From a virus: a stretch of DNA of 20,369 nt. Position 1 is the first letter of the stretch. Each line of letters begins with the position of its first letter. The translations under genes and the position numbers were made by a program. This document shows positions 8,410-20,369 of the stretch, piece by piece. The stretch lies in IMG/VR virus record IMGVR_UViG_3300047388_000168, positions 1 through 20,369 of that record; one strand, given 5' to 3'. The notes beneath the pieces were generated by a model that was not told the DNA's origin, did no database searches, and saw nothing but the letters and a program-made list of their open reading frames with translations.

Positions 8410-9726
8410 ATGCAGCTTCATACATTAAAAATCCACGAAATTCTTATCCCTAAAAATCGCCAGAGGAGGGAATTCAAACACGAAGAAATAGTTAAGCTCG
8501 CCGGATCAATATCTCAAAACGGATTGATTCAACCCGTAGTAGTCCGACAAGATACCGACGGAGCTATCTTACTAATCGCCGGAGAACGAAGACTTCGTGC
8601 TTTAAACTATGTATGGAACTTTGGTGAATCTGTTAGATGCGGAGAATACCAGTTCCCCGAAGGCCAAGTACCCTGTATATTCCAAGGTGAAATGGACCCA
8701 TTAGATGCGTTTGAAATGGAGTTAGAAGAAAATATCCGCCGGGTTGATTTAACTTGGCAAGAACGTGCTTTAGCTACTTCAACTTTATTTGAATTAAGAG
8801 ACAAACAATCTAAAGCTAAAGGAACTGCTCCGCCAACCGCCGCGTCTATATCAGAAGAAATATACGGCGACGACAACACCGGCGCTATGGAAAATAACAC
8901 CCGCACCGAACTCATAGTCGCCCGACATTTAAAAGACGAAGATGTATTAAAAGCTAAGTCCGCCCCTGAAGCTTTAAAAATACTAAAGCGTAAAGAGCAA
9001 ATTAAAAAATCCGAAGACCTAGCTAAGTCCGTCGGCACTACTTTTACTTCTTCCGTCCACCGCCTTGAATGCGGAGACTGTTTTGAAATAATGGAACACA
9101 TGACTAAGGAATCTTTCGACGTAATATTAACTGATCCTCCCTATGGTATAGACGCGGATACTTTCGGAGACTCTGGAGGTAAAACTCATGGCGCGCACTT
9201 CTATGATGACAGCTGGACGACGTGGAATAAATTGGCTAAACGCCTTGCGGTGGAGAGTTATCGTTTGGCTAAGCCTCAAGCACATGCGTACATCTTTTGC
9301 GATATTGATAATTTCGTCATCTTCAAATCCTTCATGGAGGAGGCTGGTTGGAAAGTATTTCGCACTCCATTTATATGGTATAATCCTACAGCTTTTCGTG
9401 CCCCGTGGCCTGAGCAAGGTCCTCAAAGAAAATATCAAATAGTTCTATATGCAGTTAAAGGAGATAAACCTGTTACAAGATTATATAGTGATGTTATTAC
9501 TGGTACTAACGATGATAACCTTAATCACCCCGCTCAGAAACCTGTGTCGGTGTATATTGATTTGCTTCGCCGTTCCGTTAGTGCTGGGGACAATGTTCTT
9601 GATCCTTTTGGTGGGAGCGGTACGATCATCCCGGCGGCACACGAGCTTAAATGCAAAGCGACTTATATAGAGCAGGATCAAGCGGCGTTTGGAATAGCGG
9701 TTAAGAGGTTGAAAGATTTAATATGA
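8410..9726 (+). CDS. ParB N-domain / N6-N4 DNA methyltransferase fusion
   Basis: The 438-aa protein has two recognisable halves. Residues about 1-115 match the ParB/Srx-like fold, with GERRLRA (58-64), the nucleotide-binding signature, and ENIRR (107-111). Residues about 215-438 are a beta-class methyltransferase: the catalytic motif DPPY (242-245) comes first and the SAM-binding LDPFGGSGT (397-405) comes last, after HPAQKP. DPPY favours N6-adenine as target. Between the halves lies a Lys-rich linker (about 130-210). Such fusions occur in phages and plasmids; the ParB part may give DNA recognition or CTP/ATP use. No restriction partner is seen, so protection from host enzymes or marking of phage DNA is the likely role. 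The stop overlaps the next ATG. Confidence 0.88.
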   Translation: MQLHTLKIHEILIPKNRQRREFKHEEIVKLAGSISQNGLIQPVVVRQDTDGAILLIAGERRLRALNYVWNFGESVRCGEYQFPEGQVPCIFQGEMDPLDAFEMELEENIRRVDLTWQERALATSTLFELRDKQSKAKGTAPPTAASISEEIYGDDNTGAMENNTRTELIVARHLKDEDVLKAKSAPEALKILKRKEQIKKSEDLAKSVGTTFTSSVHRLECGDCFEIMEHMTKESFDVILTDPPYGIDADTFGDSGGKTHGAHFYDDSWTTWNKLAKRLAVESYRLAKPQAHAYIFCDIDNFVIFKSFMEEAGWKVFRTPFIWYNPTAFRAPWPEQGPQRKYQIVLYAVKGDKPVTRLYSDVITGTNDDNLNHPAQKPVSVYIDLLRRSVSAGDNVLDPFGGSGTIIPAAHELKCKATYIEQDQAAFGIAVKRLKDLI

Positions 9727-10103: not shown

Positions 10104-12524
10104 ATGCCAATCCAGGTGAAACCCGATGGGCCGATACCGGCTAAGATAATGATCGTTGGAGAAGCTCCCGGCGCCGATGAAGAAGCTAAAGGTATTCCTT
10201 TCGTCGGAGCTTCTGGTATTGAACTAAACAAAATGCTACAGGAAGTCGGTATCACCCGCAGCGAATGTTTCATAACTAACGTAGCTCGGGAGCGGCCTTT
10301 AGGTAATAATATAGAAAACTTTATCGCATTTAAAAAGAAAGACATCACCAAAGAACATAAGCTCTTACGGGATAAATACGTTAAAAAACCTATTCTTGAC
10401 GGCATGGAAATACTTAAAACCGAGATCAAGGCGGTTAAACCTAACATCATAATCGCCCTAGGCAACACCCCTCTCTGGGCTTTAACTGGCCTATGGGGTA
10501 TAGTAAAGCAGCGAGGTTCAATGTTATATGAAGACATTTCTGGACTCAAGTGTAAAGTTATTCCTACTTACCATCCTGCTGCTATTCTTAGACAATGGGA
10601 GTGGCGCTCCATCGCCGTTAGCGATCTCCGACGTGCTGCGCGATTTCGCGGAGGCCTTGATTATCCTGTTACTAATTGGAACTTTCGTATCCGCCCGTCG
10701 ATAGACACCGTTATAGTTGAATTAACTGCTTTAATAGTAAAATGTAACCAAGGTATAACCCTTATCTCTTTCGACCTAGAAACCCGCAACGGCCACATCG
10801 CTTGTGCTGGTATTTCCTGGACTCCTACCGACGCTTTATGTATCCCTTTAATGTGTATGGAAAACCAGTCTGGATATTGGAGTGAAGATGAAGAAGCAAA
10901 TATCATACACCACTTATACCGGCTACTTACTCACCCTAACTGTCACGTGGTGGGACAGAACTTACTTTATGATAGTCAGTATACTTATCGCCATTGGCAT
11001 TTTATCCCTAACGTTAAGCAAGACTCAATGATATCACATCATGTAGCTTTTGCGGGATTACCAAAGCGGTTGGATTTTCAAGCTTCAATGTATTGCAACC
11101 AATATGTTTACTGGAAAGATGACTCCAAGCATTGGGAAAAGGGTGTTGGTGAAAACCAACTATGGTCTTATAACTGTGAAGACTGTGTGCGAACAGCTGA
11201 ATGTGCAGAAGTAGAAAAGGGTATTATAGATAAATTTAATCTACAAGAACCGGAAGAATTTCAACAGGCTATGTTTTACCCAGTCCTAGCCGCTATGCTT
11301 CAAGGTGTTCGTATTGATTTAAAAGCCCGTAACGATATGGCTATGGAATTATCTGAAGAAATGTTTAAAAGAGAATCTTTCTTCGAACAAGTGTTAGGAC
11401 ATAACTTAAACCCCCGATCACCTAAGCAAATGCAACAGTTATTTTATGATGACCTTAAACAACCAATCATATTAAAAAAAGGTCGCCCTACTCTCGACGA
11501 CGATGCATTAACTCGCCTTGGCCAGCGAGAACCTCTTTTACGTCCTTTGTTAAAAAACATTGCTGAGTATCGAACCCTTGGTGTATTTTTAAGCACCTTC
11601 GTCCTAGCGGAGTTAGATTATGACAACCGGATGCGCTGTAGCTATAATATTTGTGGTACTGAGACTTATAGATTATCTTCAAGTGAAAACGCTTTCGATT
11701 GCGGCACAAACTTACAGAACATACCAAAAGGATCAGTGGCTAAAGACCCAGAAGATCTTACTCTACCTAACATACGCAAAATCTTTATTCCTGATCCTGG
11801 GATGGTGTTTTTCGATATGGATCTTGACCGAGCAGATCTTCAAGTAGTAGTTTGGGAAGCAGATGATAAGGATTTAAAACTTGCTTTACGCTTAGGCTTA
11901 GATATGCATTTAATGAACGCCTGTTCTATCTTCAATATCAAAGGTATTCCCTATGAAGAACTTACTGAAACGCATTCCAATTATAAAGAGCATCGTGAAA
12001 GGATTGGAGAAGACAAACGACAAAAAGCTAAACAAGGAGTACACGCTACTAACTATGGGTGTAAAGGCAGAACACTCTCACAACATCTTAACTCTTCAGT
12101 ACACGAAGCTGACAAGTTCATATCCAGTTGGCTTGCTGCACATCCAGGGGTCGGTAAATGGCATACCCGCACTGAACAACAGCTTAGAACCCGGCGATAC
12201 GTTGAAAATAAGTTTGGATACCGACGGTTCTACTTTGATCGTATCGAAGGTCTATTGCCCGAAGCACTAGCTTGGATTCCACAATCTACTGTAGCTTTAA
12301 CTATTAACAGAATCTGGTTGAATATTTATTGTAACTTAGGTAAGGATGTTAAGGTGTTATTACAAGTACACGATTCTCTTGCCGGACAATATCCTAAACA
12401 ACAAGAACAACTATTATTACCTTTAATTAAAAAGAACGCTCAGATAGTTATTCCCTATGAAGATCCCTTAATTATTCCTATAGGCATTAAAACCAGTGAA
12501 AAGTCCTGGGGCGATGTAAAATGA
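10104..12524 (+). CDS. Uracil-DNA glycosylase domain fused to family A DNA polymerase
   Basis: The 806-aa protein joins three parts. Residues 15-180 form a family 4-type uracil-DNA glycosylase: GEAPGADEEAKGIPFVG (19-35) and the catalytic-loop HPAAILR (157-163). Residues about 218-370 are a 3'-5' exonuclease with all three motifs: Asp224/Glu226, Asn286/Asp290 and Tyr356/Asp360. Residues about 385-806 are the polymerase: motif A around Asp573, motif B Arg639/Lys643/Tyr651-Gly652, motif C His756-Asp757. There is no 5'-3' exonuclease domain. It is the likely replicative polymerase, with uracil sensing or removal built in. Three usual active-site residues differ (see findings). GAGGG precedes the ATG; the end overlaps the next gene. 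Confidence 0.92.
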   Translation: MPIQVKPDGPIPAKIMIVGEAPGADEEAKGIPFVGASGIELNKMLQEVGITRSECFITNVARERPLGNNIENFIAFKKKDITKEHKLLRDKYVKKPILDGMEILKTEIKAVKPNIIIALGNTPLWALTGLWGIVKQRGSMLYEDISGLKCKVIPTYHPAAILRQWEWRSIAVSDLRRAARFRGGLDYPVTNWNFRIRPSIDTVIVELTALIVKCNQGITLISFDLETRNGHIACAGISWTPTDALCIPLMCMENQSGYWSEDEEANIIHHLYRLLTHPNCHVVGQNLLYDSQYTYRHWHFIPNVKQDSMISHHVAFAGLPKRLDFQASMYCNQYVYWKDDSKHWEKGVGENQLWSYNCEDCVRTAECAEVEKGIIDKFNLQEPEEFQQAMFYPVLAAMLQGVRIDLKARNDMAMELSEEMFKRESFFEQVLGHNLNPRSPKQMQQLFYDDLKQPIILKKGRPTLDDDALTRLGQREPLLRPLLKNIAEYRTLGVFLSTFVLAELDYDNRMRCSYNICGTETYRLSSSENAFDCGTNLQNIPKGSVAKDPEDLTLPNIRKIFIPDPGMVFFDMDLDRADLQVVVWEADDKDLKLALRLGLDMHLMNACSIFNIKGIPYEELTETHSNYKEHRERIGEDKRQKAKQGVHATNYGCKGRTLSQHLNSSVHEADKFISSWLAAHPGVGKWHTRTEQQLRTRRYVENKFGYRRFYFDRIEGLLPEALAWIPQSTVALTINRIWLNIYCNLGKDVKVLLQVHDSLAGQYPKQQEQLLLPLIKKNAQIVIPYEDPLIIPIGIKTSEKSWGDVK

Positions 12525-14173: not shown

Positions 14174-14653
14174 CTATTTTCCACAAGTCTCAATATCCAG
14201 CCTAACCCTATCTTGTAGCACCTTAATCAGTGCGTCGTCGTCGCGGAATCTGGTGTCAATGTCGGGGCCGTAGTCTCTGGTTGTTTCACTAGATTGCGAA
14301 ACCACTGTTGGCTGTTCCTTGGCAGCATTATCGATTGATCCACCTCCGGTAACTTCACGCACGCTTGCTTGGCGTACTGGTTTGTTTGGCAAGCACTGAT
14401 AAAAATGGGGAGCATCATCAGCGGGAGGAGCTGCAACAGTCTTTTTATACTCTTCAATTTGTGTACTAGCGATTTCATTTGCCTTTGTTTCAACCTCTTG
14501 TTTATGAACTATAGACGCTGCCATTATTTGTTTGTCTTTTTCCTTGACAATATTTTCACCTTCGGTTATAAGGCTATGGCGATACCATAGAAACAGTACT
14601 AGTAGAAACACTCCTATTACTATTTCTATTATTAACCTTACGTTTTTGAACAT
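14174..14653 (-). CDS. Rz-like inner-membrane spanin subunit
   Basis: The 159-aa product has an N-terminal membrane anchor (about residues 6-24, RLIIEIVIGVFLLVLFLWY), followed by a charged helical region (ENIVKEKDKQIMAASIVHKQEVETKANEIASTQIEEYKK) and a long polar periplasmic part. This topology is that of i-spanins, which join the outer-membrane lipoprotein Rz1 and fuse the membranes in the last step of lysis. The nested lipoprotein gene in another frame at 14227-14478 supports this call strongly. The C-terminal part is longer than in lambda Rz. Its start lies inside the upstream gene (80-nt overlap) with a weak SD (AAAAGA). Confidence 0.8.
   Translation of the reverse strand: MFKNVRLIIEIVIGVFLLVLFLWYRHSLITEGENIVKEKDKQIMAASIVHKQEVETKANEIASTQIEEYKKTVAAPPADDAPHFYQCLPNKPVRQASVREVTGGGSIDNAAKEQPTVVSQSSETTRDYGPDIDTRFRDDDALIKVLQDRVRLDIETCGK
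14227..14478 (-). CDS. Rz1-like outer-membrane lipoprotein spanin (nested)
   Basis: This frame lies fully inside the i-spanin gene. I take the ATG at 14478 (83 aa), 4 nt after AAAGG; a TTG five codons earlier would also be in frame but sits directly on its SD. The product has basic residues, a hydrophobic signal stretch (LLQLLPLMMLPIFI) and the lipobox ISAC with Cys30 as the lipidated residue. The mature part contains several prolines (QPETTAPTLTPDS), as expected for o-spanins. Nested Rz1 inside Rz is the lambda-type arrangement. Length fits the family. Confidence 0.82.
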   Translation of the reverse strand: MKSLVHKLKSIKRLLQLLPLMMLPIFISACQTNQYAKQACVKLPEVDQSIMLPRNSQQWFRNLVKQPETTAPTLTPDSATTTH

Positions 14654-16194: not shown

Positions 16195-16523
16195 GGGTGC
16201 CCCTTAGTAGAGAACACATTAGCCCATAGCCATGCAAATGCCCCGGCAAACGATATCATTGCCGCTATTACAATACCGAGCGCCTTCCATGCTCCTTTTA
16301 GTTCGCTGCGATCAGTGGTTATTCCACTCACGACACCACCTTGATTCGATACTTGCTCTTTGAGTTCCGTGAATCTTCGGTCATCTTCCTTTTCATGGTT
16401 TTTACGCCAATTACGCGACTCTTGCACATAGAGCAGCATCTCGATTTTAAATCGTTGCTCATCCTTGGCGACTTCTGCCAATCGTGCCATTTCATCAGGT
16501 CGTGTAGTAGGGCTATTGCTCAT
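16191..16523 (-). CDS. Coiled-coil protein with C-terminal membrane segment (XhlA-like layout)
   Basis: I use the ATG at 16523, which overlaps the tailspike stop as ATGA; an ATG two codons earlier (16529) is equally possible, and neither has a clear SD. The 110-aa product has a charged helical region (about 10-60, with RRFTELKEQVSNQGG), a GITTDRSELKGAWK linker and a membrane segment near the C-terminus (about 81-102). A soluble coiled coil followed by one C-terminal helix is the layout of XhlA-type lysis proteins and some holins. Sequence identity to those is not evident, so the link is tentative. Confidence 0.6.
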   Translation of the reverse strand: MSNSPTTRPDEMARLAEVAKDEQRFKIEMLLYVQESRNWRKNHEKEDDRRFTELKEQVSNQGGVVSGITTDRSELKGAWKALGIVIAAMISFAGAFAWLWANVFSTKGHP

Positions 16524-18277
16524 ACGCATTCAGCCATGAAATAGGTTTCATCCGTGGCACCTGAAATAGTAAGATTTCCGCCTGTATCTTGACGCACATA
16601 AATTTCCCATGTCGTATTAGTTGCAGAATTATCTACTAACCAAGTACACATAAATGAATTTGCACCAGTCCCGGACATCTCGTCTGTATATGTCTTAAAT
16701 GCTGCACCATTGGCATAAAGCGCGAGAATCACTCTTGACTGATCTACGCCTGCCGTAAACTTCACACAGGTAGTAATGCGCTGTTTCCGCTTAGTTTGTG
16801 GGGTGTAAGTACTGCTAGCATAGCAATTTGTTTCATCAAATACCTTGGTTCCAAATGTTACTTTAGTAAATGTTGCAGTAGTAACTCCAGTCTGATCAGT
16901 GCCATTTTTATGCGCTGAAACTCTCGGACATATATCTCCATAAAGCTGTGCTGTGGAATCAAGCACATAAGTTGCTATAACACCAGATGATTGAATCAGG
17001 TTACGATTCTCCAGTATTGATCCTTGCACATTAACACTGGCAGTATTCCATGTAGTGCCAAGATGGGTATTTCTGGCTGACATATCGCAATTGCTTTTAA
17101 ACTGTAATGCATATTTGTTATTGCTGTCAGTGGCTGAAATAAAGCCGCCATCAATGGAGCCAGTACAGCCATCAAACTCCATTCCAACTGCTGCCTCTGT
17201 TGCTCCAGATGGCATTTCAATGTAAGGCCCAGTCATGACTATACCGGCTGTATTCGTAATCAAAACCTGATCCGTACCGCGATTATTTTCCCATTCACAG
17301 GCAATAAAATTAAAGCCACGATTCGCAGTGGTAGTAGGGAAATTCATGCCACCAGCGGTCGATGACGATGACCCACAGGCTTCAGTAATACAGTTATACC
17401 AATTGATATAATTAAACGTACCGCCATCCACGGAGGCCAGCTTAATCCATCCAGAAGAATTAATAACAGTATTGCCGCATGAATCAAGTTCAACATCAAT
17501 AAAATCAATGTTCCAGTTTTGATCCAAGAACCCCACGCCATAATCTGCGAACTTCCTGATTCTTACAGATTGCAGCATCGGCATAGAGCGCATGTTCCAG
17601 CCAATTGCAAGTCCCTTTACTTGATTTCCTGCGTTTGTACCATCTAGAGTAAGATTTCTAAAGGTAACAATTTTTCTATCTACTGGAAACCCTCCAATAC
17701 CAGAGCCTCTAGCATCAACAAAGATATTATTTGCCATTACCCCGTTAGCAGCAGTACACATCAAATTAGTGTCATATTTCCCCATTCCCTCCCAATTCAC
17801 TCCCGTAGCAACAGGAAGCGTATTGTTAAAGTTCATCGAACCGGAAGGGAAGCGAATTGTGCCACCACCTAATTGAGTTGCCACTAAAGTAGCATTTGTA
17901 ACAGCAGTCACATTTGCAGCAGCAGTGACAGAAGTTCCTCCACCATAGCGCTGTAACAATAAAACACCAATTTGATCATGTGATGGTATATATAAATTAG
18001 TAGGCGTCACGCTCGCAGCAGATTCTGCGGCGGTTTGGGGATATTTAATAGCTAAATAACTTACTAAGGTTTTAAGCCCATTTAATAAATCCCCTATAAA
18101 GGTTCTAGACCCAGTACCTCCGTTAGCTTCTTCTAAAGGTAAGTCAGAAGTTAAAGCTGTTCTTGCTTGTGCCTTTGTAGTAGCGTCCGCAAAAATAGTA
18201 AACTTAATAGTATCTACTGCATTGAGCCAAGCAGCGGATACAACCGTTTTTAAATCTTGGAAATTAATAAGTGCCAT
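16520..18277 (-). CDS. Tailspike/tail fibre protein with beta-helix fold
   Basis: The 585-aa protein has a short N-terminal virion-attachment part (MALINFQDLKTVVSAAWLNAV) and the motif EEANGGTGSRTF (49-60), which is common in phage tail fibres. From about residue 110 to 430 it shows the rhythm of a parallel beta-helix of the pectate-lyase type (GGGTIRFPSGSMNFNNTLPV, VTFRNLTLDGTN, many Asn and Gly turns). The C-terminal part (about 450-585) looks like a separate beta domain for trimerisation or receptor binding. The likely role is to bind or cleave host surface polysaccharide. Catalytic residues cannot be named. It is preceded by a 1-nt gap and overlaps the next gene. Confidence 0.8.
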   Translation of the reverse strand: MALINFQDLKTVVSAAWLNAVDTIKFTIFADATTKAQARTALTSDLPLEEANGGTGSRTFIGDLLNGLKTLVSYLAIKYPQTAAESAASVTPTNLYIPSHDQIGVLLLQRYGGGTSVTAAANVTAVTNATLVATQLGGGTIRFPSGSMNFNNTLPVATGVNWEGMGKYDTNLMCTAANGVMANNIFVDARGSGIGGFPVDRKIVTFRNLTLDGTNAGNQVKGLAIGWNMRSMPMLQSVRIRKFADYGVGFLDQNWNIDFIDVELDSCGNTVINSSGWIKLASVDGGTFNYINWYNCITEACGSSSSTAGGMNFPTTTANRGFNFIACEWENNRGTDQVLITNTAGIVMTGPYIEMPSGATEAAVGMEFDGCTGSIDGGFISATDSNNKYALQFKSNCDMSARNTHLGTTWNTASVNVQGSILENRNLIQSSGVIATYVLDSTAQLYGDICPRVSAHKNGTDQTGVTTATFTKVTFGTKVFDETNCYASSTYTPQTKRKQRITTCVKFTAGVDQSRVILALYANGAAFKTYTDEMSGTGANSFMCTWLVDNSATNTTWEIYVRQDTGGNLTISGATDETYFMAECV

Positions 18278-18278
18278 T

Positions 18279-18584
18279 TTAGGTTTCCGTTACAAGAGGG
18301 TTTCCAGCTATCATACAACCGGAAACAGCAAGACCCGCTCTAGCAGATCTACCGTTAATAGTACAAAACATAATATCAATATCTGTTTGGGGTTGTTCCC
18401 AAGGAACTGTTTGGATATCAACAACACCTTTAACAAAGTCTTGTGGTTGTCTAGGTTCATTATGCTCCGGACATCTGTATTGACCTTGCCAGTTTTTAAC
18501 TAATTCAGAAGCCTTACGTTTCCGCCCACACATAGAGCATGCGGCATTCCAGTCACCTAGGGAGAAAAAACTAGATCTACCCAT
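18279..18584 (-). CDS. Small zinc-ribbon late protein
   Basis: I take the ATG at 18584 (101 aa, MGRSSFFSLGDWNAACSMCG), which has GGGG 8-9 nt upstream and overlaps the ligase stop by 8 nt; an ATG eight codons earlier lies deeper in the ligase gene. CSMC (residues 16-19) and Cys38-Pro-Glu-His41 (CPEH) form a likely zinc site. The second half (VDIQTVPWEQPQTDIDIMFCTINGRSARAGLAVSGCMIAGNPL) is hydrophobic and Gly-rich. A place directly before the tailspike gene suggests a virion or assembly protein. I recall this type from phage late operons but cannot give a function. Confidence 0.7.
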   Translation of the reverse strand: MGRSSFFSLGDWNAACSMCGRKRKASELVKNWQGQYRCPEHNEPRQPQDFVKGVVDIQTVPWEQPQTDIDIMFCTINGRSARAGLAVSGCMIAGNPLVTET

Positions 18585-19902
18585 ATTTAATCCCCGTAGC
18601 AAAGCCATAAGATTGTAGCTCAGGTAACTGGTCTTCTAATCGCTTACCTATGTCTGTCCTAAACATAACATTAGAAGGCCATTTAATCTTCCATGCTATA
18701 TCATAAGCATTATCAATAGCCTTTTTAACAGTATTACCATGACCTCCTGCTATCAATACATAAGGCCCAGCTGTCATAGGTGTAGTAACTCTTTCCACTT
18801 TCCCTTCTACTATCATAGGAGCTTGGCCTACCATTACTTCTTGAAAATGGATATGCTCCATATCAGAAGGATTCATTCCATATATAGGAAAGCCCTCACC
18901 AGTTCCCCAAGGTTTAATATCTAAAGGGAAATCTTCATGAGCCATAATAACACCTACAGCTATATCTGTAGAAGCTCTTAATGTATCCCTACCTTCTATC
19001 AAGTCGGCTATCCATTGCACTGGATCACCTTTAAATACTTCTTGTCTAATACAAAAATCGGGCCATCCAAGTCTCATAGTAAATTCAAACGGCCAAGGAT
19101 TTCCCTTATCATCTATCATGCAATTAACATCACAAGGACCGACATAATTAACCATATGTAAGTAATCTGTTATAGGTTCTAATACCATATCAAATAACTT
19201 AGATTTAGTTGTATGTCTAAGCACTGTTCCCATCTCACCAGTGTTTTGCCCAAGATCATCATTCATAAACTTTTTATGCTCAAAGCATTCTTCAATAACA
19301 CTAGACCAACCGCCGGGGCCGAACATACCAGAGACCCCCATCTCAATCCCTTTAACCTTTTCCTGTAGCATAAGTTCCCCTTTAAACAGTCCATCCTTTT
19401 TCCACTTCTCTAATATAAATACAGCCTCACTAGGTGTATTTGCCACAAACGTCATAGCCTTATTAGCAGTTCCGCCCCAAGGCTTCATAGCATAAGCCTT
19501 TTTGGTTTTGACTATTAGTTTAATAGCTTCTTCCACACTAGACACTACTTGATAGGGAAGTGTTTTAATCCCATATCGTTTAAGAACTTCTTGTCCTACA
19601 CCACGGTCTAATTCTAATTCAGCTGATTTAGCGTTGGCGCCAAATATAGGATAGCCCTTACCAAAGTATTCATTCAACTCTAATGTATAATCACTATTTC
19701 CTGTAAGTATAATTAAATCCGCCCAGTCCATTTGAGGCTTCCATTCTTTAGGTTTATCCACCATCCCATTACCAAAGGGGCGTTGATCACCTGCCTTTGT
19801 AGGGGGTAACCAATACTTAACCATATGCCCAGCATCTTGAGCACGGATAGCTATATCCAATCCATTACCGTCCCCACCAGTATCCATTACAAATACTTTC
19901 AT
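18577..19902 (-). CDS. PurD-like ATP-grasp ligase
   Basis: The 441-aa protein resembles phosphoribosylamine-glycine ligase (PurD, GARS). Visible features: an N-terminal domain (MKVFVMDTGGDGNGLDIAIRA), the helix before the ATP-grasp (GANAKSAELELDR, about 88-100), Lys140 in AMKPWGG (ATP phosphate contact), LMLQEKVKGIEMGVSG (177-192), QNTGEMGTV (219-227, like NTGGMGAY of PurD) and PFEFTMRLGWPD (271-282, like EFNxRFGDPE). In PurD the Asn of EFN binds metal; here it is Thr275. So it is an ATP-dependent carboxylate-amine ligase whose substrate may differ. It is cotranscribed with virion genes, with no other purine gene near. Host purine supply, base modification or virion ligation are possible roles. 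Confidence 0.82.
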   Translation of the reverse strand: MKVFVMDTGGDGNGLDIAIRAQDAGHMVKYWLPPTKAGDQRPFGNGMVDKPKEWKPQMDWADLIILTGNSDYTLELNEYFGKGYPIFGANAKSAELELDRGVGQEVLKRYGIKTLPYQVVSSVEEAIKLIVKTKKAYAMKPWGGTANKAMTFVANTPSEAVFILEKWKKDGLFKGELMLQEKVKGIEMGVSGMFGPGGWSSVIEECFEHKKFMNDDLGQNTGEMGTVLRHTTKSKLFDMVLEPITDYLHMVNYVGPCDVNCMIDDKGNPWPFEFTMRLGWPDFCIRQEVFKGDPVQWIADLIEGRDTLRASTDIAVGVIMAHEDFPLDIKPWGTGEGFPIYGMNPSDMEHIHFQEVMVGQAPMIVEGKVERVTTPMTAGPYVLIAGGHGNTVKKAIDNAYDIAWKIKWPSNVMFRTDIGKRLEDQLPELQSYGFATGIKYG

Positions 19903-20102
19903 TACTCTGTCCCCAGGTAAGGATCATTTTGAAGGCTATCCACCATCACGCCCCAATCAAGGCGAATATATATTTTATTACCGTTTTGCATAACCTTAAC
20001 CATTTGATCCGTCTGCTCTCCAAATATCTTTCTAATAACTTCGGGTAATGGCGCTACTACCCCAACCGATATATAAGGTATCCTATTCATCTGGGGATTC
20101 AT
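19902..20102 (-). CDS. Small late protein of unknown function
   Basis: The 66-aa product begins MNPQMNRIPYISVGVVAPLPEVIRKIFGEQ and continues QMVKVMQNGNKIYIRLDWGVMVDSLQNDPYLG. It appears to contain a helix (PEVIRKIFG) and two strands (KVMQNGNKIYIRLDW). It overlaps the ligase start by one base (TAATG) and the preceding gene by 20 nt, so the three are coupled. I recognise no family. The context suggests a virion or assembly accessory. Confidence 0.65.
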   Translation of the reverse strand: MNPQMNRIPYISVGVVAPLPEVIRKIFGEQTDQMVKVMQNGNKIYIRLDWGVMVDSLQNDPYLGTE

Positions 20103-20369
20103 ATTTATACCTCAAGTGATCTTTATTAGAATGAGGAAGGTAAACTTCCCTTTCCTCTGGAGTCATTTGATCTAATATCTTTTTCTGTTGTTGCCAAGTC
20201 ATTCGTTGGAACATAGAGATATTTGAATCCTTTCCAGTCATGGCAGCCTTAGCTATTTTTAATTGCTCTTGCGGAGTTAAATCATACTTCTCAATAAGCT
20301 TATCTAACCCCTCACTATAGTTATCCATATCCCCAGCAGCATATTGCTTTTGAAGTTTTTTAACTTCAG
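20083..20369 (-). CDS. Late protein cut by the window edge
   Basis: The frame contains an ATG at 20328 (81 aa), but it stays open upstream to the window end, giving EVKKLQKQYAAGD before the Met. That segment is helical and continues smoothly, and GGGG sits only 2-3 nt before the ATG, so I infer that the real start is outside. The visible part has helices (LDKLIEKYDLTPQEQLKIAKAAMTG, FQRMTWQQQKKILDQMTPEEREVYLP). This helix-rich, Gln/Lys-rich composition is common in head or injection proteins, but function is not clear. Confidence 0.6.
   Translation of the reverse strand, partial: EVKKLQKQYAAGDMDNYSEGLDKLIEKYDLTPQEQLKIAKAAMTGKDSNISMFQRMTWQQQKKILDQMTPEEREVYLPHSNKDHLRYKYESPDE

Follow-up and report, generated by a model that had tools for sequence, protein, structure and literature searches.

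A PurD-paralogue ATP-grasp ligase encoded at the end of a phage DNA-ejection cassette

What would a phage do with a relative of PurD, the phosphoribosylamine-glycine ligase, encoded among its virion genes? The question is raised by a 20,369-nucleotide stretch of viral DNA (IMG/VR record IMGVR_UViG_3300047388_000168, positions 1 to 20,369; hereafter the window). The original prediction, made from the sequence letters, placed a PurD-like ATP-grasp ligase with an altered metal-site residue in a late operon next to a tailspike gene, and proposed that the enzyme modifies DNA bases, a virion protein or a surface glycan rather than making purines. The features that bear on this proposal are collected in Table 1.

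Table 1. Positions of the ligase gene and its neighbours in the window
Feature	Position	Strand	Details
PurD-like ATP-grasp ligase gene	18577..19902	minus	441 aa, ATG start; ORF list and family/structure matches
Thr275 codon, at the PurD metal-site Asn position	19078..19080	minus	computed from ORF start
Small Cys-rich (zinc-ribbon-like) protein, 109 aa	18279..18608	minus	overlaps ligase end by 32 bases
585-aa protein, tailspike/tail-fibre position	16520..18277	minus	position and length
66-aa ORF between ejection-type gene and ligase	19902..20102	minus	putative; 1-base overlap with ligase start (TAATG)
Large ejection-type protein gene, 3' end	20083..20369	minus	frame open to window edge, cut by edge

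The ligase call was borne out: the reading frame is real, it carries a GARS_A match in Pfam (5.8e-14) and it is predicted with confidence to adopt the GARS fold. The Pfam match to GARS_C is weak (2e-7, under that family's own cut-off). An AlphaFold2 model, built from an alignment of 49 relatives from which one row of the phage collection (L002) was left out, reached a pLDDT of 94.5 and a pTM of 0.91. Superposition on PurD, which had been proposed as a check, recovered the ATP-grasp fold. GAR synthetases ranked at the top in Foldseek, and VIA-align gave Z scores of 31.9-35.1 over ~380-395 residues for all 13 PurD/GARS entries listed, the best being 2yw2 (Z 35.1, 3.1 Å, 394 residues); PurK and PurT were the next families, at Z ~24. 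The model (range 1-427) contains the full-length GARS fold with its N, ATP-grasp and C domains, and the ATP-grasp fold carries K140, E97, E187, K210 and the metal-site residue E273. No close viral match for the model was found in BFVD, and no PHROG matched the ligase or any of 52 relatives.

Although the whole fold is common to the ligase and PurD (PDB 2yw2, 1gso, 2xcl), as is the C-terminal RxDIG motif, the identity between them is only ~21-24%. The window ligase scores 103.7 bits against the NCBIfam model TIGR00877, whose cut-off of 288 is reached by none of 10 ligase relatives and exceeded by PurD in 13 of 14 control genomes. The PurD motifs GGREHA and GPExPL, present in 10-11 of 11 PurD references, are not conserved across 52 family members, which instead conserve D7, R20, W60 and N69 in the N domain. 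Since the third PurD feature tested, the Asn of the EFN motif, fails as well, we do not file the ligase as PurD, although it would work in the manner of a PurD-type ligase. No gene of the PurM/PurL or PurA type was present in the window or in 19 relatives (20 records, possibly incomplete), which argues against purine supply. Purine synthesis by the ligase is therefore unlikely, as had been proposed. The 11 references include PurD matches fetched from the phage collection, most of which look like true PurD. Two of the collection's entries, AGRM01000005.1 (L091) and CAKLQH020000004.1 (L092), are filed as phages and carry an ordinary bacterial purD adjoining purH; they are probably bacterial DNA.

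Alignment confirmed that Thr275 occupies the position of the E-F-N Asn, which is N288 in Salmonella PurD and N285 in A. aeolicus PurD. This position is Asn in 11 of 11 PurD references. It is Thr in 52 of 52 members of a first family set and in all 126 of a later non-redundant set (<80% mutual identity), with members down to ~30% identity, a constancy beyond chance. As the single defining change, however, Thr275 proved too narrow, being one of several fixed changes that accompany the loss of the N-domain motifs. The alterations reach well beyond this residue: K>R100, E>Q180, D>E208, G>E223, N>T275, D>W/Y280 (W280 in the window ligase) and R>Y381 are near-fixed differences of the family from PurD. 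E97, R100, K140, E208, K210, E273, T275, R277 and R415 are invariant in 126 of 126 members, and E187 is kept in 125.

The A. aeolicus enzyme offers a guide to these residues. Its ATP has been assigned to K103, K143, E185, E192 and K214, its glycine to D212, R287 and E292, and its Mg to E100 and K214 (PMC8880213). By alignment, the ATP residues correspond to R100, K140, Q180, E187 and K210 of the window ligase, the glycine residues to E208, R277 and D282, and the Mg residue E100 to E97; equivalents of E100, K143, E192, K214, E283 and R287 are kept. At the glycine site of the family the Arg is retained, the Asp has become Glu in all members and the position of the second glycine-binding Glu varies between A, T, D and I. 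The predicted ATP/Mg and carboxylate-binding residues are retained in the family, and R277, the Arg that holds the glycine carboxylate in PurD, supports its reading as a carboxylate ligase. We read this pattern as one in which carboxylate activation may have been kept and the acceptor changed. With the conserved N-domain motifs of PurD gone, phosphoribosylamine is probably not the acceptor; phosphoribosylamine binding by PurD itself has not been solved (PMC8880213), so the N-domain loops are a presumed acceptor site.

The ligases form a separate family of PurD paralogues that is common in phages. Scanning IMG/VR with one sequence gave 9 relatives; a profile picked up 77 loci, and with a wider profile the viral matches numbered at least 499, of which the best 80 were taken as sequences. 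FastTree set the family apart from the 11 PurDs with a support of 0.99 and a stem of ~2 substitutions per site. Within the family dN/dS had a median of 0.065 and a maximum of 0.12 over 46 close pairs that are not independent of each other, and the family is under purifying selection. We found no published description of it in a search mostly confined to the open-access literature. At one locus a second partial match (L031:11819-12271, residues 291-440) lies ~500 bases past the intact copy, possibly a duplicated C-terminal part. An apparent 1084-aa fusion (L130) was rejected: its extra N-terminus is a spurious frame in GC-rich DNA, and the ligase begins at residue 635.

Cellular members are rare among the sequences searched, and all are plasmid-borne: Halarchaeum (L125:14950-16266), Roseomonas (L126:14962-16236) and Sphingomonas (L127:11938-13238), the last split into two ORFs and overlapping a convergent SET-domain gene. 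A search of cellular genomes with the ligase returned one distant PurD-type match only. The proteins of Halarchaeum sp. CBA1220 and Roseomonas haemaphysalidis, annotated as 'phosphoribosylglycinamide synthetase C domain-containing' and 'hypothetical', show 29% and 26% identity. They carry the family signature (E208, TGEMGT, EFT) together with R100 and R277 and cluster with the family and not with PurD, but do not keep D7 and N69. In the tree both proteins are placed, along with two phage contigs, next to the main phage clade (support 0.75), the deeper nodes being weak. The genes of the two cellular proteins have stand-alone metabolic surroundings, without virion genes.

The surroundings of the phage genes are of another kind. 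The gene order in the relatives begins with head closure (phrog_578, 7.9e-85), a GNAT (phrog_1249) and an ejection protein (phrog_598, 7.6e-31), and continues with a protein of ~370-600 aa and one of ~500-1900 aa, followed by the ligase. The last two proteins before the ligase we take to be ejection proteins, from their position and by analogy with P22 and T7. Because phrog_598 detects the ejection protein in just 6 of 20 records, the linkage was counted with profiles built here. In 39 later loci, independent of those used to build the profiles, ejection-type genes lay directly upstream of the ligase in 37 and downstream in none. The predicted late virion operon is supported, and the ligase gene closes the DNA-ejection cassette. 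An exact 4-base NTGA overlap was found at 64 of 105 junctions and a one-base overlap at 6. Across phages, ligase similarity is correlated with the similarity of Hc3 (rho 0.78) and of the ejection protein (rho 0.50), in pairs that are not independent and for which p-values were not used. The GNAT was considered as a strict partner and rejected: it lies upstream in 62 of 94 loci, occurs also in phages without the ligase and correlates weakly with the ligase (rho 0.15).

In the window the cassette is cut by the edge. An 81-aa part of the edge ORF clusters with upstream proteins of 800-1800 aa in the relatives (cluster 7). Of the small late genes that had been described on both sides of the ligase, the 66-aa ORF, without a Pfam or PHROG match, is indeed small, but the ORF at 20083-20328 is the end of a giant ejection-type gene. 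On the other side, the Cys-rich protein has no Pfam match and belongs to a cluster (cluster 18) of 11 loci, in 10 of which it takes position +1; its gene is part of the same late operon as the ligase in close relatives. It has a conserved EPRQPQDFV stretch and is shared by 11 relatives. The 585-aa product has no Pfam match, so its name of tailspike is an inference. A gene does occupy that position, as had been noted, and in the window, as in many relatives, the ligase has ejection genes on one side and genes in the tailspike position on the other. This adjacency is secondary, however: the downstream neighbour varies and lies on the opposite strand in 46 of 149 loci, whereas the upstream ejection cassette is the constant neighbour.

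The same cassette occurs in cultured phages that lack the ligase. Pseudomonas phage PfAn1, Rhodoferax phage P26218 and the Vibrio zobellviruses have head closure and ejection/internal virion proteins in comparable order, with a GNAT in PfAn1 and the Vibrio zobellviruses, and a tail-type protein gene comes next, in the ligase's place. The ligase is therefore an accessory part of the ejection module, and it represents a GARS-like ATP-grasp subfamily in a new setting. No papers joining ATP-grasp enzymes or acetyltransferases with ejection proteins were found in the literature searched.

Other genes of the window were recorded in passing. An 806-aa frame at 10104-12524 (plus strand) encodes a DNA polymerase A with an N-terminal domain of the uracil-DNA-glycosylase superfamily, and 8410-9726 (plus strand, 438 aa) a fusion of the N-terminal domain of ParB with an N6/N4 DNA methyltransferase. 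On the minus strand, a 159-aa ORF whose N-terminus contains a hydrophobic stretch (14174-14653) and a lipoprotein-like ORF (PIFISAC) nested within it in another frame (14227-14493) are a possible Rz/Rz1-type spanin pair.

These results led us to a model in which the protein is an active ATP-grasp ligase that joins a carboxylate to an amine. Produced late along with the ejection proteins, it would modify a virion or ejection protein or else travel with them; we regard modification, the likelier of the two, as evenly poised between right and wrong. We infer its activity, donor, acceptor and target as follows. Translated late alongside the DNA-ejection proteins, the enzyme would bind Mg-ATP through E97, R100, K140, E187, K210 and E273 and phosphorylate the carboxylate of a small, probably amino-acid-like acid, held by R277 and by E208 at the position of the PurD Asp. 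An amine would then attack the acyl phosphate to give an amide product, the target most likely being one of these ejection proteins of the virion. Of the three targets first proposed, a virion protein is the best, though unproven; modification of DNA bases or of glycans ranks lower. A C-terminal tag on an adjacent protein was considered as the target and rejected, no conserved tag or shared motif being seen on the protein adjacent to the ligase. Against modification of a virion protein stand the cultured phages, in which the cassette works without the ligase; in addition, the linkage may reflect the timing of expression only, and two of the upstream 'ejection' names were given from position.

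The same coupling to ejection genes would suit a ligase that is itself packaged into the virion alongside the ejection proteins and then injected, joining an amine to a host molecule in host-protein modification or counter-defence. An effector role after injection has been suggested for GNATs and polyvalent proteins packaged in virions (PMC5512222), and modification of host proteins for phage ATP-grasp peptide ligases (PMC7824862, PMC4431377). Peptide- or amide-ligase chemistry has been proposed for the R2K ligases of jumbo phages and for the ATP-grasp and amidoligase pair of LUZ24-like phages (PMC7824862, PMC4431377, PMC3890496), but these belong to other subfamilies, and the LUZ24-like genes are early and outside the ejection cassette. 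We consider an injected ligase rather unlikely, its presence in the virion being putative and no fusion to a structural protein having been found among about 150 loci. The place between ejection and tailspike-position genes could also fit an enzyme that alters the host receptor polysaccharide against re-adsorption or superinfection; the inconstant downstream neighbour, set against the constant upstream one, and the absence of any sugar-pathway gene seen near the ligase make such a role improbable.

A modified base could be a substrate for an amide ligase, and the addition of an amino acid or amine to such a base had been among the first proposals, but no supporting partner gene was found. Thymidylate-synthase-type genes are absent from all 20 records (possibly incomplete), which argues against the common routes of pyrimidine hypermodification, not against all routes; the ligase is linked to virion genes, and the replication modules differ among its carriers. 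We judge base hypermodification very unlikely. If the enzyme were a genuine PurD and its gene an auxiliary metabolic gene that supplies purines, this would agree with the nearest solved structures, all of them PurD, and phage purD genes in metagenomes have been described in that way (PMC11097641, PMC12043954), reports that do not imply membership in the present family. With a score far under the TIGR00877 cut-off, the N-domain motifs, the EFN Asn and the second glycine-binding Glu not kept, no other purine gene families in the 20 records and a gene tied to the ejection cassette, we give that role hardly any credence. Equally little credence goes to a protein that keeps the fold but has lost catalysis, serving as a scaffold or as a structural part of the virion: the virion cassette and the loss of the metal-site Asn would suit it, but core active-site residues are invariant in 126 of 126 members.

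Matching PurD models in Pfam and NCBIfam and having no PHROG model, the family may be counted in surveys as a purine auxiliary metabolic gene. Its link to ejection genes hints that genome delivery may include a modification step. With slightly less than even expectation, we propose that in hundreds of phages a repurposed PurD attaches a small amino acid or amine to ejection proteins, or is injected against a host target. If this is true, covalent amide modification would be tied to genome delivery in hundreds of phages.
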